Shown here: positions 24,512 to 47,850 of the stretch, piece by piece | Numbering within the stretch: the first letter of the stretch is position 1 | How the letters are laid out: each line of letters begins with the position of its first letter | Assembly: GCA_963662175.1 (NCBI GenBank) | Contig: OY759214.1 | Location: forward strand, 75,218,037-75,282,036 | Length of the DNA: 64,000 nucleotides | Source: Aradus depressus | Lineage: Eukaryota > Arthropoda > Insecta > Hemiptera > Aradidae | Direction: 5' to 3' | Made by a program: the position numbers and the translations under genes | The notes under the pieces: model-generated | Database searches by the model: none | What the model was told of the DNA's origin: nothing | Seen by the model: only the letters and a program-made list of their open reading frames with translations

Positions 24512-24597
24512 TAAACAATCGGACCTCACTGTAAGGATAACCAATAAAAAAGAAAATAAACACCTTCCTTACAAAATAGACTTTATTAATTAATGCA

Positions 24598-24625
24598 TTT
24601 CGAACGCAGAAGCGTTCATCATCAG
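24598..24625 (-). ncRNA. hammerhead ribozyme motif, family B (left arm)
   Basis: Minus strand: CUGAUGA (complement of 24619-24625), extra U, six-pair stem II GAACGC/GCGUUC with loop UUCU, GAAA (complement of 24598-24601), then self-complementary UGCA and UU. Confidence 0.75.
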
Positions 24626-24742
24626 AGCTACATATAAACTGTAAACAATAGTTCGGAATCAAAACGGCTCTTAATTGAGTCTAACAACAATCGATTTGAG
24701 CCGTTTTGATTCCGAACTATTGTTTACAGTTTATATGTAGCT

Positions 24743-24778
24743 CTGATGATGAACGCTTCTGCGTTCGAAATGCATTAA
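24743..24778 (+). ncRNA. hammerhead ribozyme motif, family B (right arm)
   Basis: CUGAUGA 24743-24749, extra U, GAACGC 24751-24756, loop UUCU, GCGUUC 24761-24766, GAAA 24767-24770, UGCA, UU. All invariant core residues are present. Confidence 0.75.
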
Positions 24779-24929
24779 TTAATAAAGTCTATTTAGTAAG
24801 GAAGGTGTTTATTTTCTTTTTTACATAAAATGGTGGTTTGGATACTCCATATAATTTATCTTTGATGAGTTGTATCATTTTTAAAAATCAAAATAGCTCA
24901 TCAATTATACATACAATTATTTAATAAAT

Positions 24930-25715
24930 CTTAGAATACTCTTGGATGTGTCAGGCTTTCGACCGTGTCTGGCATGTTGGTGGTGTATTAGCTGAAACAT
25001 GCGGTCCCAGACTGATATTATCGTCTTCTCCGCTCTCATCTGGATGAAAGCCAGGTCAGAGAGGGGGCAGTGCCATTGTGACGTTCATCGCATAAGAGCT
25101 GGTGTCGGACAGGGGAGCATTCTGTGACCATTTCTCTATGTTGCAAGCACATCCAGCATCCCAACATCAACTGAGACGGTATTAGCCACCTAAACCGATG
25201 ACATAGCAATTTTAGCTTCTAATAAATCCGCTGGGGATGCATACAAATTTTTGCAGGAGCACTTACACCTTCTGGAGGGTTGGCTGCTTCTGTGGAAGGT
25301 AAAAATAAATTAGATCAAATCCCTTCATGTTAAATTAGCCTCTAGCTAGGGTTCACACACCAAAAGAAATGAAGCTCATTCAAAATAAAATCCTCCGAAC
25401 AATCACACAATGTCCATACCATGTATCAAACATAACATTAAACCATGACCTGAACATACCATTCTTACTCGAAGTGAGACAACAATAATTGTTAATAATT
25501 ATTATTAATTGTAAATAATTATTATTCACAATATTGTAAATAATTATTATTCACATATTAGATCAACAAGTTCACGACACATCCGAACACGCTGGTGAAA
25601 GCTATGTCTACCTCCTCGGCGACTCAATTGTTGTTGGCCGCGTGAACCTCCTGCCTGAGGAGGGCCCCGGAGGAGATGATGGTGTTGAACAGCCGAGTTG
25701 AGATGAATAATTTTT
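24930..25715 (+). pseudogene. Jockey-like (J2) LINE, 3' part, decayed
   Basis: Shifting plus-strand frames give AFDRVWHVGGVLAETCGP, then FLYVASTSSIPTSTE-like, ADDIAILASNKSAGD-like, a LEGWLLLWKVKIN-like phrase, then KLIQNKILRTITQCPYHVSN and a C-terminal tail with PPRRLNRRWP-type DNA (25,590-25,680). AT microsatellite (25490-25555) interrupts it. About 750 bp of the same family as 10783-11679, with many frame breaks. Confidence 0.75.
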
Positions 25716-25814
25716 TTTTAAATTAATGATTTGGGATAAATCAATATAAAATTCCTAATATTAATAGATATAATAGATACTGTAGTTTTTTTAATATAAC
25801 TATTTTATATTTAC

Positions 25815-26400
25815 AACCAGCCCATTCCTGTATCCGACACTGTCCGATATCTAGGACTTCATTTAGACAGATGTTTAAATTGGACAACTCATATCTGAAA
25901 TCAATCATCGGACGACGATCGACATTATCGCTTGAAAACAAACTTCACATATACAACAACATACTAAAACCCATCTGGACTTACGGCATCGAGATAAGGG
26001 GATCAGCAAAAAAATCAAACATACAACGTCTTCAGTCAATGCAATACATTATACTTATAGGCCAAATTGCCGATGTGCCATTTTACGTTTCCAACCTCTC
26101 ATTGCATAATGACCTCAACATCCCATTTGTATCTTCTGTTATCAGGACACGATATCAAAATTTTCCCGACAAATTCAATCATCACGCCAATTCACTTATT
26201 CTGCATCCACGAACAGTCTCCCCACAAATCCGCCACGACGTCTCAAGCGGGCATGGCAGAGGGACCTGCTCCAGTACTAGCCTGGACTCTTCTTCGGTCA
26301 CGTACCTCAGCAGTACAAATACACACTTGCCTCTGCTCAACATCACAATTACCTACTAATGACTAATGTTCTGTCGTTGTAAATATGTAAATAAATAAAT
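25815..26400 (+). pseudogene. Jockey-like (J3) LINE 3' end
   Basis: DTVRYLGLHLDRCLNWTTHI, then an internal deletion, then LKSIIGRRSTLSLENKLHIY, KPIWTYGIEIRGSAKKSNIQ, LSLHNDLNIPFVSSVIRTRY. Ends with the J3 signature GTTGTAAATATGTAAATAAA. No catalytic residues present. Confidence 0.85.
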
Positions 26401-26404
26401 ATTT

Positions 26405-26475
26405 ATATTTCGTTGAAGTTATTTTCATTTCATGACTATATTTCGGGGCAGTTACACGCCCCTTCCTCAGCTCAG
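26405..26475 (-). ncRNA. hammerhead ribozyme motif, family J
   Basis: Minus strand: CUGAGGA (complement 26464-26470), extra A, stem II GGGGC/GCCCC (26445-26449 with 26458-26462), GAAA (complement 26441-26444), then UA and UA. Core complete. The element boundaries are not clear. Confidence 0.65.
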
Positions 26476-26515
26476 GTCACAAATAGTAATAAATAGATGA
26501 AAAAAGAGTATATAA

Positions 26516-26595
26516 GAGTGGCGGATACAAGAGGGGGGGGGGGGGGGGGGGGGGTAAAAGCAGAATCCCCCCCCCCCCTCCCCCGTAGCGCAGAG
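26516..26595. repeat. long G run followed by C runs
   Basis: GTGGCGGATACAAGAG leads into an uninterrupted G tract of over 20 nt, then TAAAAGCAGAAT and C tracts. The leader resembles CAGTGGCGGAT-type hAT termini, but no partner end was found. The G and C tracts can pair as a hairpin. Confidence 0.5.
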
Positions 26596-27339
26596 GTTCA
26601 TAAGTCAGTTTCGTTAAGGATAAAGAAAAATGCACGTTAAATTGGGAAAGACGTCCTATGTGTGAAGGACCTCTTGCGGTCTTGTGCCAGAATGACGTCA
26701 TTCGTTTACAGACTCAGACTGTTTCTCAACCTGTTACTATTATAATAATATTTCAGTCTTGATTATTAATTCATGCGCTTCGTCAAACCAGCCGAAATAA
26801 GCCCCATTGTCCTTTATCCTTCCAAATCTTGTGAATCGTGTATAACATCCAAATCTTGAACCAAAATAAAAAATCAAATAAAAATAAATTGAATAGTAAA
26901 TAACTGATTAAATTAATGATAATGATAAATCTATTAGGCTAAAGTAATTGCTAAATTAACTTCTTTTTTGAAATATTGTGTATTCAACAAAATACTTAAA
27001 CTACCGGTTTCATCGATCCAGTTCGGCATAATGCCGAAATCGCATATTTTTTTTAGCAGAAAAATAAATTTATTATATTTATTTAAGACATATTTCCACA
27101 ATACGTCCGCATTTTTCAACTTAGAAGTTGTAAAGTATTTATGTTAGAACATGCAGGATATTGGTATAGGACCTCAGCCAAAAATAATAAAAGCTAGTAT
27201 AAATTACAGAACACGACTTTTATATGATAGTTTATTGGGAAAACAATTCCGTTTCCGAATAGAGGGTTTTCTCTTATATGAATAGAATTTTAAATTTTTA
27301 TACTGTATCTATTACACTTTTTTTCAAAAAATGAGGAAC
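26596..27339. other. unassigned AT-rich spacer
   Basis: Nothing recognised. Confidence 0.4.
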
Positions 27340-27408
27340 AAGGATTACAAACCCGGGATCTTGAGTTCACTAGGCAAGCACGCTACCTTTAACCCACCGG
27401 CGCCCTCT
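27340..27408 (-). mobile_element. SINE-1 head fragment, minus strand
   Basis: Reverse complement of the SINE-1 tRNA-like head: ...CGGCGCCCTC at 27398-27407, degraded box A and box B. The plus-oriented tail of a SINE-1 lies 320 bp away (27725), suggesting an internal inversion of one copy or two separate relics. Confidence 0.65.
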
Positions 27409-27724
27409 TTCATTGATTAATATTATTTATTATTCTTAGTGCTTTCTTTTGAAGTCTGAAAATACTAGCTGGGAGCTCCCCACTTTATTAAACCGTAATA
27501 ATGGTTGTACGAAAATATTGTGAAAAAAGTGACCTAGCACGGAATGTCCCTACCCTTATAAGTAAATGCCAGTTTCATGGTTCGTGTTCAGAAGGGGGCT
27601 GAGGAATTCTTCAATTTTAGAGAGGAGACTCATGGAGAAAATCAATGAGGACCTGGGTATCAGATGCCTATGCTTGAGAAATAGACCTCGAACTTCATTC
27701 GAAAGAAGAAAGATACAGAATCTT
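27409..27724. other. unassigned spacer between SINE halves
   Basis: No motif recognised. Confidence 0.4.
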
Positions 27725-27905
27725 GAGCGATGGAACCAAGTCTGTACGATGTCAGGTAAATGATCCCTACCCTTATAAACCTGGGTAGGCAAAATTAAAG
27801 ACTATCATTTTAGAGTCGGGCTGATGTCCACCAGAGTGACGAAAGAATAGTCTGGTAGGCGATATGGCCTTGTAGTTAAAGTCTAGGCATGAGTCAGAAT
27901 GACTA
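27725..27905 (+). mobile_element. SINE-1 tail half
   Basis: GCGATGG..., CCAAGTCTGTACGATGTCAG, TAGAGTCGGGCTGATGTCCA, AGAGTGACGAAAGA, GGCGATATGGCC, GGCATGAGTCA in SINE-1 order, with deletions. The CCTAA tail is lost. Confidence 0.75.
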
Positions 27906-28330
27906 AATAACTACATAATCTGTTTAGCGGAAAAATAAGACAAAATGTTTGCCATTGGAAATGGACACCGATACGATGCTGGGTGTATCTCCATTGAAAT
28001 ATATACAGGGACAAATGTATCTGGATGGCCTGAACCGCCCCGTATATATCTCATGCACATGACTCGCTAACCTGCACTGCTTCATCCTGGCTCATCGTTA
28101 GAGCCCGGATTTCCATGCAATTGCATTTTTTTTTGCTTGCTTGAAATTATTAAATAACAATTTATTTTTACGAATTAAGGCATCCTGATTGATAAACTTT
28201 ATTTTGCACGAAATTGAACTTTTTAAACTTTTTTGGCAAAATTACACGTTTTAGGTTTTTACTGCACAAAATTGCATTTTTTGTCGTAATTAGAAAATTT
28301 ATTTGTAAGTTAGTTTGAAAATGTATACAT

Positions 28331-28540
28331 TTGTTAATCGACAAATTTACAAAAGTTTTGAGAAAAAATCCTGGATATGAGCAACACAAAAAGTCCAATG
28401 CGGCCATAAATGGTGAAGATATTGGATTGAATCTACAACCTGACAGCTACAAAAAATGTCCCATCACAAGCGTCAGCGTCGGGAGATCGTTTTCTCTGCT
28501 GAAATACACAGTGGTAAATTTTAACGCATTAAATGCTTAA
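28331..28540 (+). pseudogene. hAT transposase C-terminal (dimerisation) fragment
   Basis: Reads VLRKNPGYEQHKKSNAA and then YKKCPITSVSVGRSFSLLKY, matching the hAT dimerisation signature (KNPG ... PITSVDVERSFS). The E of VERSFS is a G here. Only about 70 residues remain, ending with a stop; the DDE catalytic core is absent. Confidence 0.65.
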
Positions 28541-28803
28541 CATAAAAGTATTTATCAATTTAATTGAAGTCAAATTCTATGCCTCGAGTAATGTGGTAAA
28601 CTGTTTTGTATTTTATACATCTCTAGTATTTTTTTAATCAAAAATTTATACATATATGCTTTTGTAATTAAAATATGGAGGTAAAAAAAAAACTTTTGTT
28701 TTGAGTAAATATTTTTTATAAATTGTATAAATAAATTACTTTAGGCTTTTTATTTTATAGATTTATTTTTAAACCCTACCCAATTTCATGCTGAAAATCG
28801 AAT

Positions 28804-29295
28804 GGTCGGATCGTGATGAAATTTGACATGAAGTATTCTTAAGAGCCAATTGAAATATAGACTATCTGGAGTCACGAAATTCTTAAGGGGAAGGGGGTTT
28901 AAGCATAAAAATAGGTCTAGCTCATCAAAGGATTATTGGATTTTAATGAAGTTTAACATGTAGTATTCTTAAAAGCCAAATTGGAAAATAGGGTGTTGTC
29001 TCCGAATTCTTAACAGGAGTTATAGGGGGGGGGGGGGGGGGGGGGGGGGGGGGAGCATAAAAAATGTGCTAACACATAACGGATAATCGATTGTAATGAA
29101 ATTTGACATGTACTATTCTTAAAAGCCAAATTGAAAAAAAGGGTGTGTGACGTCTCAAAATAACGGGTTAACCCTACCCTAGTGTAATAGGAGGAGGGAC
29201 TGTGAGTAGAGAATGAGCATACAAGTAGTTCAACCTAGGATTGTCATTAAATTTTACATGTAGTAGTTTTAAAAGCAAAATAAATAAAAAATAGG
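28804..29295 (+). repeat. minisatellite, four ~140-bp units
   Basis: The phrase GATGAAATTTGACATG...AGTATTCTTAAGAGCCAA recurs at 28811, 28943, 29096 and 29249 with spacing of about 130-155 bp. It lies inside the hAT-like element, and a G run at ~29024-29053 sits in the second unit. Confidence 0.8.
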
Positions 29296-29844
29296 CTGAC
29301 ATGTGACCTATGTGCTTTTGTATATCAATTAAAAGTCCATGTATAGATTAATGAATAAATAATTCTGTACTGAATAAAATGCCTAGTTTTGTGATATTAT
29401 TATTAATGATATTGATACCATGCTGGGAAGTTTGCCATGTGGACCTCAAGGGCCGCACTTAGTTACAAATGCCACCACCTTTGTAGAGTCCTAATACACG
29501 GTCCAGTAATTTCCTCTGATTTAGGGTTGCAAAGAGACGAAACACACACATCCGAGAACCTGCTTGTTTGATTTACAAATTGGATCCAATTTTTTTTTTT
29601 TTTCCCAGAAAAACAGTTAATGACAGGATTTTATTTTTTGTTGCACATTTTTGTACGTTTTGGCCTATTTATTGCACTTTTTTAAATTTTTCTTACTGCA
29701 CGAAATCCAGGCTCTACTCATCACCATTTTGTCTCTTTCAATCTCTTCTAAGTTGAGGAACGCGGACATATTGTGGAATTTGTAATAAATAAATAAAACA
29801 AAATTATTTTTTAAATATTGTTTATTCCACCAAAGATATTTACA

Positions 29845-29878
29845 AAAATACCGGTTTCGGCCTTACACCATCGTCAGG
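29845..29878 (-). ncRNA. hammerhead-like motif, family C (left arm)
   Basis: Minus strand: CUGACGA (complement 29871-29877), extra U, GG...CC stem II, GAAA (complement 29855-29858), self-complementary CCGG, then UA. Position 7 is C, which the core tolerates. Confidence 0.6.
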
Positions 29879-29887
29879 TAGGGCCTT

Positions 29888-29945
29888 ACACCCTCCTACA
29901 TCTTCCAAATGCTCCATTTTAAATCCCATATCCACCAGAAAGTCA
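29888..29945 (+). pseudogene. LINE reverse transcriptase C-terminus, upstream piece (split by LINE-X)
   Basis: Reads TPSYIFQMLHFKSHIHQKV. It joins in frame to the piece at 31219 once LINE-X and one copy of the 16-bp duplication are removed. Confidence 0.7.
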
Positions 29946-31202
29946 GATAGATAGATAGATAAACTTTTTTATTGCACAAAAGATTACAATCCTCATGGCA
30001 ATGAGTGGGTTTTTTTTTCACAAAATAAATAACAAAAGAAGTGTAAATGAAACAATTCGAAAATTATATAAAACAAAAAAACACATGAATAAATAAAAAA
30101 AAACATACTACATGTATAAATAAATAAAGTAATAATAATAAAAACAAAAAATATATATCTCCATCTTACAAGCACAAATTAAATTAGATTATTCTTTATT
30201 TTTAAAGCAACCGAAAAAAATAAAAATAAATCGTTAATTTCTCTAACTTTTAAATTATTTAAAATATGTACAAATGTTTCTGAGTTATATTCTGGTCTAT
30301 TGGTGAGATGATTGTGGAGAAATGCTTGCCTGGGGATACACAAGGCGGGACAATTGAGCAAAAAGTGTATGAGATCATCCTTCTCATCTAAGGTACAGAG
30401 CCTGCAGACACTTTCAGGACAAAACTCATACCTAAGCCCTCCAAGTAATATTCTAAAATTTTTATTGGTATTGTGGAGACGGATTTGAGCTAGAAGTCGG
30501 AGTTTTTCAATATGGCAGTTTATTGAAAGATAGCTTTCCTGAGGTCCTAAAGCACTGACCAATCGGTAGAGGGAGTTGTATTTAGAATTTACTATTGAAT
30601 TTATATCGAGACAGACCAGATGATTCCTCATAGCTGCTACCAAATCACCACGGAGGGGCCGGATATCAGAAATATAGGGGCCATCCAGAAGGTGGTCAGC
30701 CCCGATCAAGGCCAGGTAACACCTGAGTTGGGTGACCCTGTTGAAGGGCAAAACAAAGTTTCGGCTGAGTTGGGCAAGGCGAAGGTAACAGAGTCTTGGG
30801 AGACGGTCCTCCGACATGGCCAGGAGTTTCTGCCACCAGCCCAACTTCCTGCTGAATATCTTCACTTTAGTGTGAACCCGGCCTGTTTCCATTCTAACAT
30901 AGGCGCTGGGGGTGCTCACTGGAAGCCCTAGAACTGACTTAAAGAAGCCCAGCTGACCCCGCTCAACTACCTCCACGTACTCACATCCCCAAACCTCGGA
31001 CAAGTATAGAAGTACACTCTCAGCTATCGAGTCGAAAAGGTAGCATTTCGCCTCCCAGGAATCAGATCTCGTGGATCTTAACAGGTTCATTACTGCCGAA
31101 TTTCCCGCTGCCAATTTTCCCAAAAAATGATTGGAGGCGGCGCGAAATTTGCCGGAGGAAGAGAATGGCACACCCAGATATGTGAAACTATTTACCAGGA
31201 CC
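29946..31202 (-). mobile_element. LINE-X, 5'-truncated, 16-bp target-site duplication
   Basis: 1,257-bp minus-strand insertion. The 16-mer atccaccagaaagtca is at 29930-29945 and 31203-31218. The 3' end is a GATA run (29946-29962); the 3' UTR occupies 29963-30178. Same family as 3851, 40700 and 47460. No poly-A: the microsatellite tail is typical of some I/Jockey-group LINEs. Confidence 0.93.
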
Positions 31203-31204
31203 AT
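30179..31204 (-). CDS. LINE-X reverse transcriptase C-terminal region, open over ~341 codons
   Basis: Uninterrupted frame from the truncation point to the stop. Starts VNSFTYLGVPFSSSGKF (end of the RT domain), then LLRSTRSDSWEAKCYLFDSI, YLSEVWGCEYVEVVERGQLG, VLGLPVSTPSAYVRMETGR, and a C-terminal Cys-His cluster VCRLCTLDEKDDLIHFLLNC (C-x2-C-x8-H-x4-C). The order fits LINEs of the I/R1/Nimb group; exact clade uncertain. The first five codons of the longest frame (31219-31205) belong to the target DNA. The catalytic palm is missing, so no activity is expected. Absence of stops argues for a recent insertion. Confidence 0.85.
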   Translation of the reverse strand: MVLVNSFTYLGVPFSSSGKFRAASNHFLGKLAAGNSAVMNLLRSTRSDSWEAKCYLFDSIAESVLLYLSEVWGCEYVEVVERGQLGFFKSVLGLPVSTPSAYVRMETGRVHTKVKIFSRKLGWWQKLLAMSEDRLPRLCYLRLAQLSRNFVLPFNRVTQLRCYLALIGADHLLDGPYISDIRPLRGDLVAAMRNHLVCLDINSIVNSKYNSLYRLVSALGPQESYLSINCHIEKLRLLAQIRLHNTNKNFRILLGGLRYEFCPESVCRLCTLDEKDDLIHFLLNCPALCIPRQAFLHNHLTNRPEYNSETFVHILNNLKVREINDLFLFFSVALKIKNNLI

Positions 31205-31218
31205 CCACCAGAAAGTCA

Positions 31219-31860
31219 CTAGATCCCGTTCCTCTGATCTTTATCTCTCTTCCCACAGGACAACAACCTACCACAACTCCTTCCTTATCCAGGCTAACTC
31301 CCTCTGGAACTCTCTCCCTCTCCAGATTCGCCATGCTTCTACTCTCCTTTCATTTAAGTCCGTACTTTTCCATTATCTCCTAACTCAGCAAACCTCTGAT
31401 TCCTAAGGCGGGCTCCTATGTGATAATTTTCGTCTTCCTATAGGTATCTCACTCCACTGGACAGATTGTCACTCTTCTGTTTCATCGGTCCAGTTTTAGC
31501 GATTAAATTCATATATAACTCACTATTGTTATTATGTTTTACATTATTTTTCATACTTTGTTTTTCTTATTTTTATTTTATTTGGGGGAGTGTCACCACA
31601 AAATAAAATAATAATATTTTATTTATTCATTTTATTATTATTATTTTTATTTTTTCCATTAATTTTCACCAGTTTATTTTATTGTTTTAATCATTGCCTC
31701 TCTTTAACATTTAATATTTATTACTAGAGACCTCTTTTCTTTTATTTTTATTTTCAACTGGTTGATATTTATATACTCTTGTTTATTCTTTATATTATTA
31801 TTCTTAGGGGACGTAAGTCCCAGAATAAATATTATTTTTCATTTCATTTCAGGTCTAGTT
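31219..31860 (+). pseudogene. CR1/Jockey-type LINE C-terminus and 3' UTR, downstream piece
   Basis: Reads TRSRSSDLYLSSHRTTTYHN and NSLWNSLPLQIRHASTLLSF, KSVLFHYLL, stop at 31406: the WNSLP motif is the hallmark C-terminal end of CR1/L2/Jockey-type reverse transcriptases. 31407-31860 is its AT-rich 3' UTR with two similar phrases (GGGGGAGTGTCACCACAAAA, GGGGACGTAAGTCCCAGAAT). The reading frame was disrupted by LINE-X. Confidence 0.85.
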
Positions 31861-31875
31861 ATGAACTAAGGACTT

Positions 31876-31910
31876 AGTCCTGACGATGTTGTAAGGCCGA
31901 AACCGGTATT
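31876..31910 (+). ncRNA. hammerhead-like motif, family C (right arm)
   Basis: CUGACGA 31880-31886, extra U, stem II weak (GUUGUAAGGC, mutated relative to the left arm), GAAA 31899-31902, CCGG 31903-31906, UA. Confidence 0.55.
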
Positions 31911-31974
31911 TTTGTAAATATCTTTGGTGGAATAGACAATATTTCGAAAATAAGTTTGTTTTATTTATTTCAAT

Positions 31975-32530
31975 CTCATATGAATACACCTGGGAGAGTA
32001 TCTTGACTATAAAACCATCCAAGAACCTCATAAGACATCTTCAATTAAAGGAAAGATAAGTCCTTTGATGTGATTTCTATGATGGACACTAAGAAAGTCC
32101 ATTAATAACTGATAAAGTACAAGTATAAGGCAAAGTTGGAGATGAAAATGGAACCAGTTTCCGTTGATTCCTCCTTGAATGGGCAGATTTGGGTCCTTTA
32201 TTGAATATTAATAGCTATCTTGTTAATTAGCTAATGGAGCTTAGAGCCGAGATAGGGTCAGTCCATTGTTAAGTCAATAAGGGTCACTTCTAGTCCGATA
32301 TTATATCCTTTTGATAGAAACAATACAAAAGACAAAATTTAGGAGTTCTCTTGAAAAAAAAAAATGATCCATAATTCCGATTTTTAAACATTTTTTTTTT
32401 TTTAAGTAAACATCTTAGCTCTCGGAAGGGCTATGGCTCGTTGATGTGCATGCGTAACCTCTGCAAACACACACAACTACACAGCGTGTCAGCTTTTTTT
32501 GAGCATTTCTATTGTACTTTTTAATTATTG
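31975..32530. other. unassigned spacer
   Basis: Nothing recognised. Confidence 0.4.
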
Positions 32531-32535
32531 ATCAT

Positions 32536-33685: not shown

Positions 33686-33786
33686 TCGACCGTGAATCAA
33701 CGGCAATTTACGTCCCCAGCACGAATCAATTAATTTCCTTTTCGCTGACCTTCCAGAACCAATCCATCATTCAGCCTACAAATCAA
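33686..33786 (+). repeat. R700 head fragment
   Basis: CGACCGTGAATCAACGGCAA, TTTACGTCCCCAGCACGAAT, CCTTCCAGAACCAATCCATC. Confidence 0.65.
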
Positions 33787-34030: not shown

Positions 34031-34370
34031 ACAATTTACAATTTATTGAGTACACTTATTTAACTAAATAAATTTACAAACGAAAAAAAATAAATAAATA
34101 AAATAAATGCATACAGATACATCCACATTATAAATATATTTACATTATATCTGTGGAAGAATAACAAATAAAGTTTGAATATTCAACATGAAATAATTAT
34201 ATGTTAAAATTGGACAGAAAATAAAAACTTTAATTTAAACAATATACATTAATAAAGATACAATAATAATACAATAATACAATTTAATAATATGAATATA
34301 ATATGAATATGGCTGATGTAGTGAGAACAGATTATTTCACAGGTTGTCAAATAAAATATAGTATGACCTC

Positions 34371-34445
34371 TCACAGATTTTTATTACAAGTAGCTAGCCG
34401 GCTTTCGAGGTTTCCCTCATCATCAGGCAGTCTACAAAAGAAACC
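34371..34445 (-). ncRNA. hammerhead ribozyme motif, family D (Penelope-like terminus)
   Basis: Minus strand: CUGAUGA (complement 34420-34426), extra U, stem II GAGG/CCUC closed by a 4-nt loop (GAAA), catalytic GAAA (complement 34403-34406), self-complementary GCCGGC, then UA. All core residues present. Location downstream of the nuclease coding region is where Penelope-like terminal repeats carry hammerheads. Confidence 0.8.
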
Positions 34446-34597
34446 ATCCTTAATATAATATAAAGACAACATAGATAAATATATTAGATTGAAAAAATTA
34501 AAAAAATTTTGAAATAACCATACCTGATATAAAATTAAAAAACTAAATAATTTTATAATAAAATAAATAAATAAATAAATAAAACAATGTAAAAACG

Positions 34598-34990
34598 TTA
34601 ACAATTTAAAATATCATGGATGGGGACAGATGAGTTATTCCTGTCCACCATCTGAGTCACAACTGGGAGAACGGAGTACGTGAGACGGGACAGACCTCCC
34701 ATCCCCTCTCTAGAGTTGAGGAGGGGGGACTCTCTCTTCCTCCTTTCCAATTTAATTTCTATACTTTCCAATGTATCCATCTTTCTACTTTTTTGGATAT
34801 GATGCAGTAACGAGACTGAACACGACCTCATGTCCTGTGTTTTGGAGGTGTTGGGGCTCCTCAAATGTTCCCTCACTCTAGTCCTCAGCTTCCGGCCTGT
34901 CTGCCCAAGATAAAAACATTCACAATCTTTACAATTAATCCTATAACCTGTACTTTGAGACAATTTAATAAGTAAGAAAACATTGAAAAA
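34598..34990 (-). pseudogene. Penelope-like GIY-YIG endonuclease domain fragment
   Basis: Reads GYRINCKDCECFYLGQTGRK then LRTRVREHLRSPN, LLHHIQKSRKMD, LERRKRESPLLNSREGMGGL, TYSVLPVV. Known family facts: Penelope-like elements fuse RT to a GIY-YIG nuclease with a Cys pair just before YIGQTGR, exactly as the NCKDC...YLGQTGR block here. Y, R (of TRVREH) and a downstream E-rich helix are present. The first ~25 residues of the open frame are upstream AT-rich sequence, and the RT half is missing. Confidence 0.85.
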
Positions 34991-35049
34991 TTTTAGAAAA
35001 AAATAACAAAAAGAAAAATAGATATTTATACATATATACAAATAAATCA

Positions 35050-35808: not shown

Positions 35809-35999
35809 GATGGATTTAGTGTAATAATAATATTAATCGCAATAATAATGTTAATACTGGATACAGATAACGTTTAAAAGAAAATAATAGTAAGAAACAT
35901 AGAATATTATAAATAGAAAATAATAATGTCAATACAGGAATGAAAAATTATGTAGAAATAAAAGACGTTGTCTTCCCACTGTTTTATTTATACCAGAAC

Positions 36000-36029
36000 C
36001 GGTTTTCGACGCAACAGCGTCATCATCAG
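36000..36029 (-). ncRNA. hammerhead ribozyme motif, family A (left arm)
   Basis: Minus strand: CUGAUGA (complement 36023-36029), extra U, stem II GACGC/GCGUC (36017-36021 with 36008-36012), GAAA (complement 36004-36007), ACCGGU, UC. Core complete. Confidence 0.75.
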
Positions 36030-36097
36030 TGGTTCATCCACCCACACAACACAGCAGTTGGAAGATAACTGGCCAGCTGTGCTGTGTGGGTGGATGA

Positions 36098-36139
36098 ACC
36101 ACTGATGATGACGCTGTTGCGTCGAAAACCGGTTCTGGT
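36098..36139 (+). ncRNA. hammerhead ribozyme motif, family A (right arm)
   Basis: CUGAUGA 36102-36108, U 36109, GACGC 36110-36114, UGUU, GCGUC 36119-36123, GAAA 36124-36127, ACCGGU 36128-36133, UC; UGGU 36136-36139 can pair with ACCA 36098-36101 (stem I). Confidence 0.78.
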
Positions 36140-36369
36140 ATAAATAAAACAGTGGGAAGACAACGTCTTTTATTTCTATTAGAAATCTCGTCCCACAACA
36201 TCTTACTATCACATATGAAAAATTATGTATTTGTTCGGAACAACAAATGTAAATTACTCAAGATCACTTCTTATAATATTACATACATATTATGTATTAT
36301 ACTTTTTGATAATTATTAATTAATATTCATATTCCATCATGAAATTCCTGTTATGGCCACATCAATTTT

Positions 36370-39215: not shown

Positions 39216-39228
39216 AAATATATTAACT

Positions 39229-39705: not shown

Positions 39706-39707
39706 AA

Positions 39708-39850
39708 TTTCAAGGCCTTTAACTACGAGGTCGTATCGCCTACTACGAAAGCGCTCTTTCGTCGCTCTGCAGATGAGCATCGTACAGGCTCGGGATCATC
39801 GCTTAACGTTCCATCTGAAGAACGGCGTGCTCATGGTTTTTCCACTTCCC
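39708..39850 (-). mobile_element. SINE-1 relic, minus strand
   Basis: AACTACGAGGTCGTATCGCC, AAAGCGCTCTTTCGTC, CATCGTACAGGCTCGGG, GCTTAACGTTCCATC, AACGGCGTGCTCA: reverse SINE-1 with a deletion in the middle. Head and tail missing. Confidence 0.7.
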
Positions 39851-40320
39851 AGAAAAGAATTGTGAACTATTTTTCTGTTGATATGTGAATTTTTTTCTGT
39901 CTGGGCTCCTCCCTCCAGTATCCCGTCTTTGGCAGAATTATCTTTTATAGTGTAGTTTTAAGAATAGCTAATGGCTAGTGTGGTGTCTGCCGAGGCCAAA
40001 AAGAAAACAGAAAAAAAAAAAAATAGTGTACAGTTGAATGCTGTTTTGACTTACATAAGAAAATGTCATCGTTGTTTGTGCAAAAAGTAAAAAAATTCAA
40101 CTTTTTAGGTTGGAGAAAAAACATATATATTTCATTTGGGTCAGGTATATTGACGTCAAATTTTGACTGTTTGCTTATAAGGATATTTGACATCACAGAA
40201 AACATCAATCAAAATGTCATCAAGATGGACAACAGATTTATTACAACATACGACATTGTGTAAATTATTATTTACAAAATTGTGACGTAGGACCCTTTTG
40301 TATTGATAAATATAAGGTGC
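39851..40320. other. unassigned AT-rich spacer
   Basis: Nothing recognised; overlapping open frames on both strands (39975-40263) carry no motif. Confidence 0.4.
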
Positions 40321-40322
40321 TG

Positions 40323-40590
40323 GAGGGCGTTGGTAGCTCAGCTAGAGTACTGAGCTCGAGATTCGAAACCCCGTCGAGGCCCTCAGTTTTTTTATCTGGA
40401 AAGTGAAAAAATCTGTTGGCACTATAAGCGATGGTCCCGAGCCGGTACGATGTCAGGTACTTGTTAAAGACACCTTCCCAAGGTGAATAATCGTGAGTAC
40501 CCACAGTAGTCAGGTTAATGTCCACTAGAGTGACAAAAGTGCACTCAACCAAAGGTGGTTAAAAGTCCGGGCATGATTCACAACAACTAA
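40323..40590 (+). mobile_element. SINE-1, degenerate full copy
   Basis: GAGGGCGTTGGTAGCTCAGC, shortened head, box B ATTCGAAACC, GGTCCCGAGCCGGTACGATG, CCACTAGAGTGACAAAAG, GTCCGGGCATGATTCA; tail CAACTAACAAAC. Many small deletions: an old copy. Confidence 0.8.
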
Positions 40591-40699
40591 CAAACTTTGT
40601 CCTAAGGTAAATCTTACTTTTTTTTTAAACATTCTATTATTTCTCTATTTTAGAGAACATTTGACGACATTTTTATACAAGTTGAAGGCCTTTAAACCG
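40591..40699. other. AT-rich spacer
   Basis: Short; nothing recognised. Confidence 0.4.
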
Positions 40700-41040
40700 A
40701 CCTTCTGCAGTAATTAAGAAAATAATAAATAGATAAACTAAAAAAAAGACCCAAATAATATTAAAATAATAAAAATGGTCATGCTCTTTAATAGAAATAG
40801 TGCAAGCAACTAGGACACAGAAACGATTCAAAATTATATAAATAAAATATGATCTTTGATACGAGAAAATAGTAAAATAGTAATCGTAACACAAAACCTC
40901 ACAAGCAATAAATTAAATTATATTTTTCTTCATTTTTAAGTCATAGTAAAAAATAAAAACAAATTGTAGATTTTTTTAACAGCTACATTATCAAAAAGTG
41001 CACAATATTCTGAGTCGAATTTTGGTCTCTTTTTTGGTTT
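40700..41040 (-). mobile_element. LINE-X 3' end, degenerate
   Basis: Same order as 3990-4310: AATATTAAAATAATAAAAATGG, CATGCTCTTTAATAG, AGTGCAAGCAACTAGGAC, AATTCTGAGTCG-like end (ATTCTGAGTCGAATTTTGGTC). Poorly preserved. Confidence 0.65.
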
Positions 41041-41325
41041 TCAAGCATCTTTGGGATGCTTTTTGGATTTTTTCCCTCTTCTCCGAAGATATTTTCTTCT
41101 ATAATTCAGATCGGCGGGACTTTATGAACGCGTTATCGTTTCGAAATATCGCCGGTGTATTGTGCCAGAATAAACGAACCTTGGGATGAGAGCTTCTTCT
41201 AAATCTTCGGTATTCACCTTACACTGCTCTTTCTGACCGGGTGGTCTTTAGGTCGACTGATGAACAACAGTAGATGTATGAAAAGCCGAATATATGGAAA
41301 AACATGGAGACTCAATGCCAAACTA
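41041..41325. other. unassigned spacer
   Basis: Nothing recognised. Confidence 0.35.
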
Positions 41326-41329
41326 AAGT

Positions 41330-41560
41330 GGTGGAGACCCATAATAACTTACAACTTCCCAGTCTGGTGACAGAAAGCCGATATAGGACAAAGAAGGAAA
41401 CAACTGGACAAAGACTTGCCTGCTTGGAAATCATGGGAACACCACCACTATAGCAATGAAGGAAACCCTTCTAAACCTCTTTGATGGTGAAAGCGGATAC
41501 AAGAAGGGAAGCCTATAGACTCAGAACAGTACCTAATACCGGGCAACATACCGAGGACCG
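41330..41560 (+). pseudogene. LINE reverse transcriptase C-terminal relic (I/Jockey group)
   Basis: Frame with stops reads TGQRLACLEIMGTPPL, then LMVKADTRREAYRLRT, matching the LA(C)L.ITGA..TTP..AL..LL...PL ... EA...AYRL tail of I/R1-type LINEs. Upstream KWWRPIITYNFPVW-like words appear in another frame. Confidence 0.5.
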
Positions 41561-42795
41561 GGCATACAGTAATGTTTAAAGTATGAAAGTGTGAAATTTA
41601 AAGTATCAATATGTCTGGACTTTCAGTATTACGATCGGGCTAAGCTTATCTGGTTCAAAAACTGCGAGGGGTTGGAGTTGGAATACATTGGATAAAGTAC
41701 AATTAAGGGAGATATCCCACTGTCGGGTATGTCATCCTCCTGTGCGCTTGGCTCATCAAGAGATGGAATATCAGGGAAGGGCCTATTCCAATATTGTCGA
41801 TATATACATTTTGAAATCGTCCTGGAAGAACATTGGAGTCCCTCTCGGACCAAAACAGAGTTGAGTTGGAATGTAACGAAAGACTAGATCAATTCGTCAG
41901 GTTGGGAGCTGAAAAGGCACTCGTTTTTATTTTATTTACACATGGATATTTACAACTGTATTAAAAAAAAAAGTGTGTGTTTGCAGTTTGCAGTGTAACT
42001 TCCGTACCTAACTCTTCTAGATTCAGTTCCTCTTTGAACTAATAAACTATATTTTTATTTTAACTATTTTCATTAACAATTGGTACAGGGTAGGAAATAA
42101 TTTATTTCAGAAATTGTTTTTAATGTTATTTATTTATATTAACAGTTAAGGATACATTAATTTATTAACTTATAGAGAATACGAGTAGAATAGAATAATT
42201 TTATTTATCAGCGTCCAATGCCATATATTTTTGACGCCGAATACTTGATTAAATTAGTTCGATGAGGTGGGTTGTCTTCATTGAGCTTAGGCCAGCTTCG
42301 ATAGATAAGTGTTTCTTTTTGAATTGTATTGTGACATTTTATGCGATACACAATAAATTTAAATACAATAAGTACACTTATAAGATGCACAATAAGTAAA
42401 TTTAAAGCGTTGTACACTCAAAAAAAAAAATCAGATAAAGAGATAAAAAGTTTTTAAAAAACATATAACATATAGTCTCTAACCCCTCACCGTTTTTTAT
42501 ATTTTATTATTTTTCAGCACTAAATTAGATTTTTTAATAGAAAATATTATCATATTATTCATTTTTTATTACTAAGCATTGAAACGGTATATAGAAATAT
42601 ATTAAAAAGTATCAAAAGTGAAAGGTCAAGAATGTTACGAATGTTTTCGTTTGCGTTTTGGAGGGGGAAAACGCGCATCTACCTCAAAAAGTCCTGCTAT
42701 AACTAACAGTAAGTAACGAAGTAACACTTCAATAAATAAAAGCAAATGTGCTAAGAGAGAGACAATAGCATTGTCAAAATGTCAAGAGGGCAGAT
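41561..42795. other. unassigned AT-rich spacer
   Basis: No gene, repeat unit or inverted repeat recognised over ~1.2 kb. Open frames 41629-41853 and 42208-42417 lack family motifs. Confidence 0.4.
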
Positions 42796-42799
42796 ATCA

Positions 42800-43092
42800 C
42801 CCAGTAGTGACACTTCCTAGGCCTTGAGTTACCTCACTAATTACTGTCACTGTTGCTGCTAAGGAGGTCTCTAGGCTATTGACCCTTAAGCAATCGTTAG
42901 GGAAGTGTGTCTGAAGGGCGTCTAGAGGATTATTGTGGAGACCAAGAGTAACAAATAATTTTTTTACACTTGGGTTTAGCAACTTCGGTGACAAAAGGTA
43001 CGTTAAGGTCAGTGTGAAGAGGTTTGTTGGAGACGTAATAAGGAGCATTGGCTATTGTACAATGATTTTGAATTGAAGGGATTGGATGCGCG
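42800..43092 (-). pseudogene. Jockey-like LINE C-terminal relic
   Basis: Minus strand: PIPSIQNHCTIANAPYYVSN, KPLHTDLNVPFVTEVAK, then in another frame NPLDALQTHFPNDCLRVNSL. Corresponds to the IQNKILR...APYYVSN..LH.DLNIPF tail of the J2/J3 elements. Confidence 0.7.
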
Positions 43093-44190
43093 TAGAACCG
43101 GAACTCTCCAAGAGCACCGCCAGGGCGACGATAAACAAACTGACCAGTAAACAAACGAGTTCTAGAACGGGTTCCCTAAACAATTCTCAGGGAAGAGAGC
43201 CGAGAGCTTCTGAACATGGACAGAATGAATTACATAATTCTTGCTACTCTACACCTCTGTATAGCAAATGTGTCGAGAAAAATGAGACTCCGGTCTAGGT
43301 TTTAAGTCCGTGTAAAACTCTAGAGAGTTAAAGGTTATACTTCTTCGGGTATGCTCTAACAGAATCGAGACAAGCTATGGAAGGAAGGCAGAAACCTGGA
43401 CTTTATTAAAGATACAGGGCTCCTGTAGGGATCAACATACACAAGGACCACAATAGACCTTACTCTGCCCACGGTGACACCTTATTCCCTCGTTAAAAAA
43501 AGGTAGGTTCCTTTTTTCCAGTATTTCTTCCAGAGATATCTTTCCAACGTTTGACAATATTTAGGGAGACATTCAAGTCTCTTCTTCGGGCCACAATGAG
43601 CGTTCGTCGCAAAAAAAAAAGGAACCTACAATCATCCCAGACAAGCTTAAGGAACACGATATAAAATAGTCCAAATATCTGATTAAAACTCTCTTTAGCA
43701 GTTTTATGCGTTTCTGTGGTGGTTGGCAAAAAAGAATTTCTACTTTACATTTTTTTAAAAAAAATATTTGATTTTTGTGTACATAGAATCGATAGGCGTA
43801 ATCGAATCTCTCAATAGTTCTATTTTTATGGTTCCGAAGTCGGTATATGGAAAGTCTATTAACGAGTGTTTGTCCCCTATTTTTGTGATATGTTTTCAAT
43901 TTCTTTAGGCATGAAGTCAATTCAACTTTCAATAAATATAATCTACTGTTACTTTTCCATAATTAAGTGACTTTGATATAACTTTAATCAGACTTGAAAG
44001 CAATTTAAAGACTTACCTATGTTGTGCTGGGGAAAAAGTTGTTCTACTATAACTTAATAGTTTGACTTTAGGTTCGCATTATTTATATGACTTTATGAAA
44101 AGTATTAGAAGTTGTAACACCTTCTTTTGGGGCTAAAGAAGTAATAGAAGGAAACTTTGTGCCAACGAATAACGATGGGTACATATACTC
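43093..44190. other. unassigned spacer
   Basis: Short inverted repeat GGTAGGTTCCTTTTTT / AAAAAAGGAACCTAC at ~43502 and ~43613. No gene recognised. Confidence 0.4.
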
Positions 44191-44262
44191 CTGCTTAGAG
44201 TTACCAACCTGTGTAAAGTTACTAACCTGCTTAAAGTTAGTAACCTGTGTAAAGTTACTCCG
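44191..44262 (+). repeat. 18-bp minisatellite, four units
   Basis: Units at 44191, 44209, 44227 and 44245. Units 1 and 3 start CTGCTTA, units 2 and 4 start CTGTGTA, so the array is also a 36-bp dimeric repeat. Confidence 0.85.
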
Positions 44263-44944
44263 AGCTTGTTATATATATGTATACACACAATTTTTAAGGT
44301 CCGAGATAATTATAATACAGATGACAAACTATCTCAATAGTCCAGCCCAGGTTTTCCACGAGGTCGACAAACCTTGAAACCAATCTACCATGGAGGCATC
44401 CTGATGAAATACGAAGAAGTTCCACGTGGAGCCAAGATGAATAGGCTTACTGCGAGAGTCGGGACTTTTTCATTAGTTCTCTTAAAGAAATCCATCCCCC
44501 AGACCTCCTACTGCCATTCAATCGTATTCCTCTGTATCTCCGTTACAACAGAGCCAACTGAAGAGGACTTATTGAGAATTTTTCCAATCAATGAAACAAT
44601 AAATCTGTATTGATAATTACCATCAAATCAGAATTCTGAACATATGCCCTTTATGAACCTTTGTAATGTATCAAAGCTGCACAGAACTTGACCATTGGGT
44701 TATGAATAGGTTTTGGTTACTCCCAATTCTCTCTAAATCTGATCCTAACAAGGTCGAATAACATGAAACAAATGCAAAGCCTCAAACTCGATTTGTGTGA
44801 CAAACGTTTAGGTACAATATATTTACTGTAAGAATTGGGAGGGGCTGATCTTTAATAATTTGTGAATTCTAGTGATCTTTAAAAAAACAAAAAATCGCTC
44901 AAGTGCAAACTACATTTGCACAATCGCTCTAGAATTTTTCAATC
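44263..44944. other. unassigned spacer
   Basis: Open frame 44374-44613 has no recognised motif. Confidence 0.4.
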
Positions 44945-44957
44945 CTGATAATTTTGG

Positions 44958-45189
44958 ATAGATAATTAAAATACACAATTTCTTTGTCAAACTTCACTAT
45001 ATATTCTCAAATACTCTCTTGTACTTCTACTCTTGAGTTTGTAAGTAGTCACTTGATAATGCCTTAACACGGCGAAACTAGTTGAGTATTTGAGAATATA
45101 AAGTGAAGTTTGACAAAGAAATTGGGTTATTTTAATTATCTATTCCTAGAATGGAGCTTCACAAAGTAAATCTGGAAACCATAAACTAT
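44958..45189 (+). mobile_element. hammerhead element family E, 13-bp target-site duplication
   Basis: 232-bp insertion bounded by ctgataattttgg at 44945-44957 and 45190-45202. Inner inverted arms 44961-45015 and 45085-45140 (~55 nt, few mismatches) enclose a 69-nt centre carrying the ribozyme-like core; the last ~50 nt (45141-45189) are outside the arms. Confidence 0.88.
45050..45085 (+). ncRNA. hammerhead-like motif with U3-A8 pair, family E
   Basis: UUGAUAA at 45053-45059 replaces CUGAUGA: C3 and G8 are both changed (to U and A), keeping a Watson-Crick pair. Extra U, GCC 45061-45063, loop, GGC 45071-45073, GAAA 45074-45077, self-complementary CUAG, UU. Confidence 0.55.
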
Positions 45190-45204
45190 CTGATAATTTT
45201 GGCT

Positions 45205-45514
45205 CAATCTATACTTAATTCTCAATTTTCATGATTTTTTTCAGATTCTTCTGAGCCATCCTTTTGGTGACAAGGGTGGGGGAAAGCAATTTTTAAGTGT
45301 TTCTCCCGAAAAATGTAAAAAAAAATACATCATATATACATATTGTTGAATTCGTGCTTCAATAAGCTTTCATTTGACAGCCTACACGGTCGAATAGTTT
45401 TAGAAAAAATCACCTGTGACAGACGGAAATAAGTGATTCCATAAGTGTTCCGTTTTGCTAATTTTGACGCAAAACATTAGAAAATGGCTTATGTATGTTC
45501 AGATTTACCACCTG
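45205..45514. other. unassigned spacer
   Basis: Nothing recognised. Confidence 0.4.
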
Positions 45515-45570
45515 ATGATGGTTGTTGATGGCCGAAGCTAGTTGTGAAATAAAATATATTGTTGCAGTTG
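45515..45570 (+). ncRNA. hammerhead-like motif, family F
   Basis: CUGAUGA 45522-45528, extra U, GGUUG/UGGCC stem II (with wobble pairs), GAAG at 45544-45547 in place of GAAA, then CUAG and UU. The A15.1 to G change would weaken activity. A GAAATAAAATATATTG tail follows as in other families. Confidence 0.5.
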
Positions 45571-45894
45571 TTACTATTGGTTACTTCTTTGTGCTAATCG
45601 GATTGAGGCCGTGTTCTTGAACAACGGCGAATATACGTCCGAACGATTCGTATCAGATTGACTTTTATATTGCCGTACTAACAAATTAACACAGAATATA
45701 CATGAGAGGCTCGAAATTATGTACCCTCCTGAGTCTCCCGACGCAGCATTCAATTTAAACTTATAATTAGTTGAAATCGTAAGATGATCAACTTGTCAAC
45801 AGCGCTTATTAAACGTTCTACATATTTCGTCATGAGAGAGCAAGATGGTGCCTTGATTTGAAAATGTATTTATAAGCCAAGGTCGAAAATATGG

Positions 45895-45930
45895 GGCCTC
45901 TGAAGAAGGCGTTGTGTCGAAGATGATTAA
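45895..45930 (+). ncRNA. hammerhead-like motif, family G, degenerate
   Basis: CUGAAGA 45900-45906, extra A, GGC/GUC stem II, GAAG 45919-45922. Palindromic stem III is lost. Probably dead. Confidence 0.4.
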
Positions 45931-46556
45931 ACCCTTTAATTTTCTTCAAAGTCTCCAGATTAGCTTTGTGTTAATTAAACTTAAACTAAGCTCCAAAGAG
46001 TTTTCTACCTCTTAACCTTCTCAGGACTTTAAGGAATTATATTCTTATTCGGAGCGGAATTATATAGCATAAATACATAGCGTAACTATTAGGTGAATCA
46101 GTCAACTTATTGGGGGAAATTTCGAAGAATCCAAATGATTTAGCTGGCTAAACTGTAATTACTTGTAGAATTTTAGTAGAATTTCGATTCGAGATTAAAC
46201 CAGATTGTGAAGGGAAGTGAGTTTGGAAAATATTTTTTCAACGAATATGAGTTTGGGAGGTATCAAATTTCAATATTTTCGATATTGCCAGTGGTCCAGT
46301 CATTTTTGACATTATCACTGCTCACTTATTAAGGAAAACAGTATGTCAGAATCATTTAAAGTGTTATAATGTTAATTTTTAGGAATAATATATAGTTTTT
46401 AAGGAGGAAAGATGTAAAAACAGGTTAATAAATAAAACTTTATAGTATATATTAAACATAGAAATTTAGTCATTATGAAGTAAAAATAATATTTATTGTA
46501 GTTAAAAAATTAATGTAACATAGAAATTGAGTTAATAATAATAAATTTTTACAATC
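45931..46556. other. unassigned AT-rich spacer
   Basis: Nothing recognised. Confidence 0.4.
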
Positions 46557-46606
46557 ATAGAGAAATACCATTTGCATAGAGAAATACCATTTGCATAGAG
46601 AAATAC
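46557..46606 (+). repeat. 19-bp tandem repeat, 2.6 units
   Basis: ATAGAGAAATACCATTTGC at 46557-46575 and 46576-46594, then a partial third unit. Confidence 0.85.
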
Positions 46607-46651
46607 AAATTATAACATATTTTCATCATGCCGTATGCCCACATCTGTAAA

Positions 46652-46992
46652 GAGGGCGCCGGTAGCTCAGTGGTATGCGTGCTTGCCTTCTGAGCTCAGG
46701 ATCGTGGGTTCGAAACCCGACCGAGGCCTTTAGTTTATTTTATCTGGGAGGTAAAATAAACTTAAGCACGCCGTCCTTCGGATGGGACGTTAAGTGATGG
46801 TCCCGAGCCTGTACGATGTCAGGTACTCGTTAAAGACCCCTACCCTAGGTGAATAAAAATTTAGGGTAGACAAAATTTAGGACTCCCATAGTAGAGTCGG
46901 GCTCAAGTCCACCAGAGTGACGAAAGAGCGCTCTGGTAGTAGGCGATATGACCTCGTAGTTTAAGCCCGGGCATGAGTCATAAAACTTAACC
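46652..46992 (+). mobile_element. SINE-1, full length
   Basis: GAGGGCGCCGGTAGCTCAG start; box A ~46662-46678; box B GGTTCGAAACC at 46707-46717; complete body; shortened tail (AAACTTAACC). No clear flanking duplication. Close to the 47855 copy. Confidence 0.9.
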
Positions 46993-47004
46993 TACTAAAT
47001 TTGG

Positions 47005-47220
47005 GGGCCATGGTGGCCGTGCGGGCTAGAGCGTAGGGCTTTGGTCGCATGGTCTCACCATGGTTTGCGGGTTCGAATCCCGTCCGGGAGTGAGTTTTAT
47101 TTCGTAGATAGAACTCCCTCCCGGGGCCATGGATGTCTTAAATAATTATATATTACACATTGACATGGCTAATATGCACCGTACATGAAGCCAAACAAAA
47201 AAAAAAAAAAAAAAAAAAAA
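47005..47220 (+). mobile_element. second tRNA-derived SINE (SINE-2), class II tRNA-like
   Basis: Head GGGCCATGGTGGCCGTGCGG has a Ser/Leu-type box A (TGGCCG-G-GG); a hairpin CATGGT/ACCATG sits where a class II variable arm would be; box B GGTTCGAATCC at 47070-47080. A 3' body then a 24-nt A tail. Flanked by aaatttgg (46997-47004 and 47218-47225, A's shared with the tail). The A tail implies a different partner LINE from SINE-1. Confidence 0.82.
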
Positions 47221-47310
47221 TTTGGTGTTGATGTATAAGATAGGTACTTTGACAGTTTTTTTGAGACAAACTCCTCTGGTCCCCCATTTTCTTCAGTCAA
47301 TTTAATTGAA
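47221..47310 (+). repeat. R700 fragment, target of SINE-2
   Basis: TTTGGTGTTGATGTATAAGA, TACTTTGACAGTTTTTTTGA, GGTCCCCCATTTTCTTCAGT; the same stretch is uninterrupted at 52425-52510. Confidence 0.8.
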
Positions 47311-47330
47311 ATTATAAATTATATTATATA

Positions 47331-47389
47331 TTTATTATTATTATTATTAATAATGTACAATGTACATTATTAATAATAATAATAATAAA
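47331..47389. repeat. perfect 29-bp AT palindrome
   Basis: 47331-47359 and 47361-47389 are exact complements around one base; made of ATT/AAT repeats and TGTACA. A second palindrome of 10-bp arms (CAGATGTACA / TGTACATCTG) follows near 47417-47437. Confidence 0.85.
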
Positions 47390-47459
47390 ATTCTATAAAA
47401 TTCTATAAAATAAACAGATGTACATTGTACATCTGTAAAAAGAAAAAGAAATAAAGGCG

Positions 47460-47686
47460 TTTATTATTGTTATTACATATGACTTTTAGTACATTATAAG
47501 GAAAAATTTGAGGAATTTAATTTGTTGCATGTAAGATGGATATATATATTTATTATTATTATTATTTATTTTTATTTATTCATGTTCACGTCATATCTTG
47601 TTTTATATAATTTTTGAATTGTTTCTTTTATCCTGGTATCTTGCACTATTCATATTAGCACGTCCATTTTTACTATTTCAATATTA
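47460..47686 (+). mobile_element. LINE-X 3' UTR, plus strand
   Basis: Plus-strand GTAAGATGGATATAT, TTTATTCATGTTCACGTCAT, TATAATTTTTGAATTGTTTC, ATCCTGG, TTGCACTATTCATATTAGCA, CGTCCATTTTTACTATTTCA matches the reverse of 4000-4180. Truncated at 47686, where the family B palindrome starts. Confidence 0.75.
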
Positions 47687-47850
47687 AAGAAAATAAGCAC
47701 CTTCCTTACAAAATATACTTTATTAATTAATGCATTTCGAACGCAGAAGCGTTCATCATCAGAGCTACTTATAAACTCAGTGCACGAAATGCATTAATTA
47801 ATAAAGTATATTTTGTAAGGAAGGTGCTTATTTTCTTTAATATTGAAATA
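47674..47850. mobile_element. hammerhead element family B, palindromic copy
   Basis: Arms 47674-47739 and 47785-47850 are perfect 66-nt complements with a 45-nt loop. The outer 12 nt of the left arm are LINE-X sequence, and their complement closes the right arm. Only the minus strand has the whole ribozyme. Confidence 0.85.
47735..47762 (-). ncRNA. hammerhead ribozyme motif, family B
   Basis: Minus strand: CUGAUGA (complement 47756-47762), extra U, six-pair stem II GAACGC/GCGUUC, loop UUCU, GAAA (complement 47735-47738), UGCA, UU. Same as the 24512 element. Confidence 0.75.

Follow-up and report, generated by a model that had tools for sequence, protein, structure and literature searches.

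What brought together, within 64,000 nucleotides of the Aradus depressus genome (contig OY759214.1, positions 75,218,037 to 75,282,036; this whole stretch is here called the window), several families of hammerhead-like sequences with a minute self-complementary stem III, and how were their copies inserted? Based on the evidence collected in this study, we consider it likely that these sites represent minimal hammerheads borne at the termini of Penelope-like elements (PLEs), and that two-ended target-primed reverse transcription on uncut RNA makes the head-to-head mirror pairs, an arrangement seen in the window in families A, B, C and F. We report the anatomy of the copies, with their target-site duplications (TSDs), tails and junctions, and the linkage of family D to reverse transcriptase (RT) and GIY-YIG domains. 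The motif is of a known kind, because dimer-cleaving PLE hammerheads are already in print; the window families are a new set of members.

Results

A hammerhead motif with an extra base and a short stem III

The pattern used to scan the window comprised CUGANGA, zero or one extra base, stem II, GAAR, a palindrome of 2-10 nt and UH. It gave 15 matches, 10 of them with a palindromic stem III, whereas 100 first-order Markov shuffles gave on average 1.14 matches (maximum 6) and 0.11 palindromic ones (maximum 1). The palindromic sites (Table 1) represent six families (A, B, C, D, E and J), not 10 independent events. Each combines the conserved core with a short stem III able to pair between two copies, and each has a one-base insertion after A9. 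Stem I reaches at least three pairs at only four of them (three A, one E), and has two pairs in D, one in B and none in C and J.

The initial annotation had ascribed this layout to further families as well. It stands for the six just named; F has a degenerate core (CUUGAUAA, about +45053..45083), and H-like sites (GC-UU) are found only outside the annotated range of 24,512 to 47,762, at +18041 and as a decayed copy near -17.0 kb, with a better-kept copy, whose stem II has five pairs by eye, in locus L060. The second site of family C (C2, +31880) failed the pattern. Our guess is that the annotated family G is the site at +45900, which has an extra A, lacks stem III and has no relative within the window. 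The copies of C, E, F and H are older, and the assignment of J is uncertain. The annotation's view that the families are unrelated outside the core had to be given up: A, B, C and D share by eye a 3' layout of AATAAA, a G/A-rich stretch and TTTTATTT, and E aligns to a CUAG family elsewhere in the genome (77%, E 1e-5), as does C to a different one (74%, E 3e-9). An Rfam search of the window returned no hammerhead family at gathering score or E<=10, and a search of the species' own genome with RF00008 found no match, which is uninformative considering that 14 of 14 control genomes were likewise silent. Pattern scans gave five bacterial matches among prokaryote contigs, by rough estimate taken as chance, and none among viral contigs.

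Across the 697.7-Mb genome containing the window, the form with an extra U (CTGATGATG N8-16 CGAAANNNNT) has 2,262 exact matches versus 16 for the reversed control; the form without extra base has 92 versus 12, though that pattern is less strict by one fixed base. The extra base after A9, already noted as constant in the initial annotation, is a strong rule in this genome, and the sites here do not have the canonical minimal-hammerhead core that lacks it. Covariation was computed on the 86 distinct sequences among 100 genome matches listed, all from one contig (C1), and compared to 2,000 shuffles. In stem II, pair 10.2/11.2 is formed in 70 of the 86 (shuffle maximum 59) and pair 10.3/11.3 in 68 (shuffle maximum 52), hence beyond all shuffles, in figures inflated by relatedness among the matches. 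Perfect palindromes of 4 nt occur in 16 (shuffle maximum 13) and a 2-nt palindrome with UH in 17, a count equalled twice among the shuffles; one or other of these two forms is seen in 33 of the 86. Relatedness inflates these counts as well. The outer pairs of the 4-nt word are not enriched (29 of 86 versus a shuffle mean of 24.7, reached in 236 of 2,000).

A large further family (GGGAGTGCTTCCC-GAAACGTT, 2-nt palindrome CG) is seen among the same listed matches, outside the clear families of the window. The idea that the extra U creates the start codon of an open reading frame (ORF) was rejected, as in A, B, C and D the frames opened by that ATG reach a stop, by eye, in no more than 12 codons.

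Family D is an autonomous Penelope-like element

In the window, the D hammerhead lies 174 nt 3' of a GIY-YIG stretch, a 149-aa piece of which gave no relative at E<=0.001 in a protein search. Relatives of the stretch were taken from the genome (best 150 scored of 5,759 candidates), and 30 loci were examined on both strands. A D hammerhead follows the GIY-YIG domain at 71-174 nt in 28 of these, with the palindrome GCCGGC intact in 25 of the 28. In locus L066, an intact frame of 859 aa lies between two hammerhead cores spaced by 2,819 bp. It contains an RVT_1 domain (PF00078, E 1.7e-12) and a C-terminal GIY-YIG domain (PF01541, E 1.8e-6), the first ATG lying 150 nt after the hammerhead core; relatives of this frame with PF00078/PF28514 are at <=35% identity. 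Since hammerheads flank an RT frame ending in GIY-YIG, L066 has the canonical Penelope layout (PMC11167929; PMC3846280, the latter cited throughout from the part of the paper available). Family D is therefore an autonomous PLE, and the Penelope link made in the initial annotation is borne out for D by these domains and by tandem units. Tandem or partial tandem units, end repeats, an inverted partner, tail and TSD were fully seen in four of five D loci; in these the TSD measures 13-15 nt, and a tail of ~40 nt is found at one end and not the other. In the fifth, L069, a complex junction at 940-1022 contains short unit pieces in both orientations and resembles template jumps.

Short mirror pairs of families A and B

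Family A is a short repeat without long frame. For the TSD of the window A pair, random flank pairs share at least 15 nt with P 0.0005; the diverged A copy of Table 1 retains a palindrome despite two changes in it. Two samples of genome copies were read. The first, which includes the window copy, consisted of the best 40 of 1,519 candidates matching a tailed arm. Since its query contained 20 nt of the opposite arm and was thereby biased, a second was drawn with an 86-nt query lacking tail and junction (best 40 of 816 candidates, representing 39 loci), of which 36 were examined after omission of the window copy and two loci examined before.

The first sample has one tail in 40/40 copies, a TSD of at least 9 nt in 39/40, distinct junctions in 34/40 and no arm beginning at the predicted cut site (0/80). 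Of the second, 31/36 copies are two-armed; among these, 30/31 have exactly one tail, 27/31 have a TSD of at least 9 nt (the 9-nt TSD of L107 being doubtful, and a tally of 28/36 counting in a spurious one at single-armed L105), 27 junctions are distinct, and no arm (0/62) starts within 2 nt of the cut site. From one tail, varied junctions and absent cut-site arms, each A pair looks newly made by reverse transcription, and the template looks like uncut RNA, copied from both cut ends. At most junctions, the arms are separated by 0-16 nt of filler or overlap by 1-8 nt. A no-tail arm reaching the RNA 5' end (37/40 starting at position 1-2 in the first sample) was discarded as a feature, having been selected by the biased query and being absent from the second sample.

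Marker indels agree between arms in 36/39 and 38/39 copies of the first sample (22.8 and 19.5 by random pairing) and, for three markers of the second, in 20/24, 26/29 and 29/30; both arms therefore usually come from one source. At 7 of 31 second-sample loci the arms differ at one or more markers. Differences in a single indel may be slippage. L120 differs at two markers and has no TSD; L007, of the first sample, likewise differs at two, is flanked by a TSD of 12 nt and makes the strongest case that two RNAs took part in one insertion.

PLE-type insertion marks, namely head-to-head arms, one tail and a TSD, are present in A and B with the exception of copy B3. The B pair at 24.5 kb and locus L079 are each single-tailed, with a TSD of 12-13 nt. 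At 260-315 bp, the A and B mirror pairs are too short for an RT/GIY-YIG frame of their own.

In a sample of 20 motif loci (every fifth of the 100 matches listed), L075, L079, L080, L081, L086 and L087 have clear inverted arms and L077 and L084 weak ones; by eye, L081 has one tail. L080, of the CUAG family, contains two direct hammerhead copies (584 and 860) 276 bp apart, adjoining an inverted arm.

Table 1. Hammerhead-bearing and related features of the window (bp, base pairs; strand "." for mirror pairs; signed numbers are palindromic sites of the window scan)
Feature	Positions	Strand	Details
Family A mirror pair	35953..36219	.	Head-to-head arms 99% alike, 35953-36055 on - and 36076-36178 on +; tail on right side only; sites +36102, -36029
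A hammerhead, right arm	36098..36139	+	Core 36102; extra U 36109; stem II GACGC/GCGTC; GAAA; palindrome ACCGGT; UC; stem I ACCA/TGGT
A hammerhead, left arm	35992..36033	-	Core start 36029
Left TSD of A pair	35940..35954		ATGAAAAATTATGTA; right copy 36215-36229
A copy	18841..19009	+	Site +18933; left arm short and tailed; TSD of 16 nt at 18822 and 19009
Diverged A copy	9381..9543	-	Palindrome ACTAGT instead of ACCGGT; mutated core
Family A relic	56455..56542	-	Internal deletion; nhmmer E 0.0025-0.005; 22-nt exact tail match
Family B mirror pair	24512..24823	.	Sites -24625, +24743; palindrome TGCA; tail left
TSD of B pair	24500 and 24824		CATAAAATGGTG
B copy (B3)	47674..47850	.	Site -47762; short right arm, no tail; TSD not found
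Family C arms	29787-29888; 31867-31970	-; +	Site -29877; arms 91% alike, ~2 kb apart; TSD not found
Family D end	34320..34451	-	Site -34426 (core); palindrome GCCGGC
PLE frame fragment	34598..35047	-	Upstream of D hammerhead; GIY-YIG, PF01541, E 6.8e-6
D-type end relics	61237..63214	-	63084-63214 and 61237-61311, flanking GIY-YIG-like remnant near 62.2-62.5 kb (by eye)
Family E hammerhead	45507..45545	+	Site +45512 (core); palindrome CTAG; stem I 3 bp
Family F mirror pair	44958..45143	.	Degenerate hammerhead with CTAG; TSD not found
Family J site	26430..26470	-	Site -26470; extra A; stem II 6 bp; palindrome TA; no stem I
Family H copy	18018..18123	+	Core 18041; GC-UU
Family H decayed partner	16929-17029	-

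Other repeats of the window

By eye, a frame of 353 aa resembling a long interspersed nuclear element (LINE), without Pfam match, appears nested in the C pair at 29950-31220, flanked on either side by CCACCAGAAAGTCA. Four copies, 89-100% alike, of a 300-nt repeat (75-374, 3455-3754, 46647-46946 and 47850-48149) have a transfer RNA (tRNA)-like GGTTCGAAACCC box. The repeat is presumably a tRNA-derived short interspersed nuclear element, judged by the motif; ARAGORN called no tRNA on it. A tandem pair of 114-bp copies (93% matches) occupies 3215-3459, and CCTAA runs at 345-433, which we take to resemble the TTAGG telomere repeats of insects, adjoin a repeat.

Discussion

The insertions are best understood through a sequence of events, the order of which we infer. 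The target would be cut with a stagger, as TSDs of mostly 9-16 nt in A, B and D suggest, and each DNA end would prime reverse transcription inside element RNA that the hammerhead has not cut. Two start points are envisaged, one inner and the other ~37-41 nt further 3', the latter giving the tail. Both complementary DNAs (cDNAs) would extend toward the RNA 5' end and then be joined into a head-to-head mirror pair. Families A and B, which have no reading frame in the copies read, were probably moved by PLE enzymes.

Several alternatives need to be weighed against two-ended priming. Self-priming, in which second-strand synthesis starts from the folded-back end of a single cDNA, would derive both arms from one RNA; it has been proposed for Penelope palindromes (PMC3846280) and is in line with the marker agreement between arms. 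It predicts the same tail state on both arms, which differs in 30/31 A copies, and does not account for the seven second-sample loci with marker differences, L120 among them, or for L007 of the first sample; we regard it as unlikely. The animal retrozymes offer a different precedent, with tandem repeats whose dimeric hammerheads cut RNA units that are then circularised and copied back. Short type I hammerhead repeats are known from many invertebrates including insects (PMC7229834, in its available part), and L080 has its two direct copies; the A copies are inverted pairs in 31/36, not direct tandems of unit length, not one arm among the 80 and 62 begins at the cut site, and the 5' junctions of D loci L066, L067, L068 and L070 are away from it. 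A retrozyme origin is thus quite improbable, and on the same grounds the tandem or rolling-circle processing assumed in the initial annotation finds no support for family A.

Long inverted arms with TSDs would also be expected of DNA foldback elements or those akin to miniature inverted-repeat transposable elements, the mirror pairs being copied as such by a transposase. Distinct junctions in 27 of 31 and 34 of 40 copies, the confinement of the tail to one arm and the recurrence of the same anatomy around frames with RT and GIY-YIG domains leave this explanation with only a slight probability. That cores and palindromes are random matches in an AT-rich, repeat-dense window might be argued from the isolated J and +45900 sites and the silent Rfam search, yet the shuffles and the reversed genome control reduce the probability of it virtually to nil.

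Two-ended target-primed reverse transcription at PLE ends itself faces contrary observations. Stem I is shorter than 3 bp at 6/10 palindromic window sites, and 53 of the 86 distinct matches listed lack a perfect palindrome, many being, in our reading, decayed copies. Among the A copies, 3 of 5 single-armed ones are without tail and L121, a complex locus, has two; by eye, L086 has two as well. Inverted arms clearly span the motif at only 6/20 sampled loci, and weakly at two more. The window copies B3, C, F and D yielded no TSD. The helper for A and B is one that we can only infer, because the genome GIY-YIG search, the only search made, revealed no autonomous PLE whose ends are of the A or B type. 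Lastly, the hammerhead junction does not appear in energy folds of A, B or D, whether as monomers or as dimers, and in the A dimer ACCGG pairs with CUGGU of the other strand rather than palindrome with palindrome, contrary to a simple dimer reading. Predicted activity therefore rests on published relatives. By analogy to these, self-complementarity of stem III would enable a dimeric hammerhead to form from two RNAs or two tandem units, and the dimer action proposed in the initial annotation would fit the published PLE variants cited in PMC6466107 and PMC8490949.

Extending two-ended priming, one may speculate that the stem III palindrome serves as an RNA-dimer handle, with a PLE protein dimer carrying two templates, one per cut DNA end. 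We hold this to be rather doubtful; if true, it would explain head-to-head insertions with one tail each and would imply that RNA pairing is as much a reason for retaining the hammerhead as cutting is. The one-tail rule, the varied junctions and the absence of cut-site ends bear directly on the mode of PLE insertion and on whether the ribozyme acts on template RNA. For both questions the genome offers more than 2,000 exact motif matches and numerous insertions that are almost identical and have clean target duplications. In the open-licence literature, we found no published report of frame-less PLE families as one-tailed mirror pairs.

A self-complementary stem III allowing dimer formation was noted in 2011 in Aedes and others; those hammerheads resemble the window sites, and the available part of that report does not make the PLE link (PMC3088659). 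Among the nearest known relatives are the small PLE variants that cleave as dimers, reported by Lunse, Weinberg and Breaker (RNA Biol) as cited in PMC6466107 and PMC8490949. They are alike in their location at PLE ends, type I layout and extremely short stem III, and a palindromic sequence is said there to be required for dimers. A 2020 review, in its available part, calls the in vivo activity and role of PLE hammerheads still a mystery (PMC7761336). The retrozymes share with family A the short non-coding repeat with type I hammerhead, but are tandem, canonical and give circular RNA, whereas A copies are inverted pairs (PMC7229834). The Penelope of Adineta vaga has head-to-head inverted ends, an optional 31-bp tail, a TSD of 8-10 bp and palindromic junctions, which agrees with the families here in inverted ends, tail, short TSD and junction type; it is of low copy, whereas short A copies are numerous, with 1,519 candidates of which 40 were scored (PMC3846280). 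Purified PLE protein cuts and extends both strands, with two internal starts 30-40 nt apart (PMC11167929). In the Poseidon PLE of Anolis (PAc) studied there, the hammerhead lies at the border of pseudo-long terminal repeat and ORF, and its cutting is unneeded for in vitro insertion. PAc differs from family D in that its ORF begins at stem II rather than 150 nt after the core, and resembles the elements described here in having a hammerhead by the ORF, two internal starts of reverse transcription and the use of both strands (PMC11167929).

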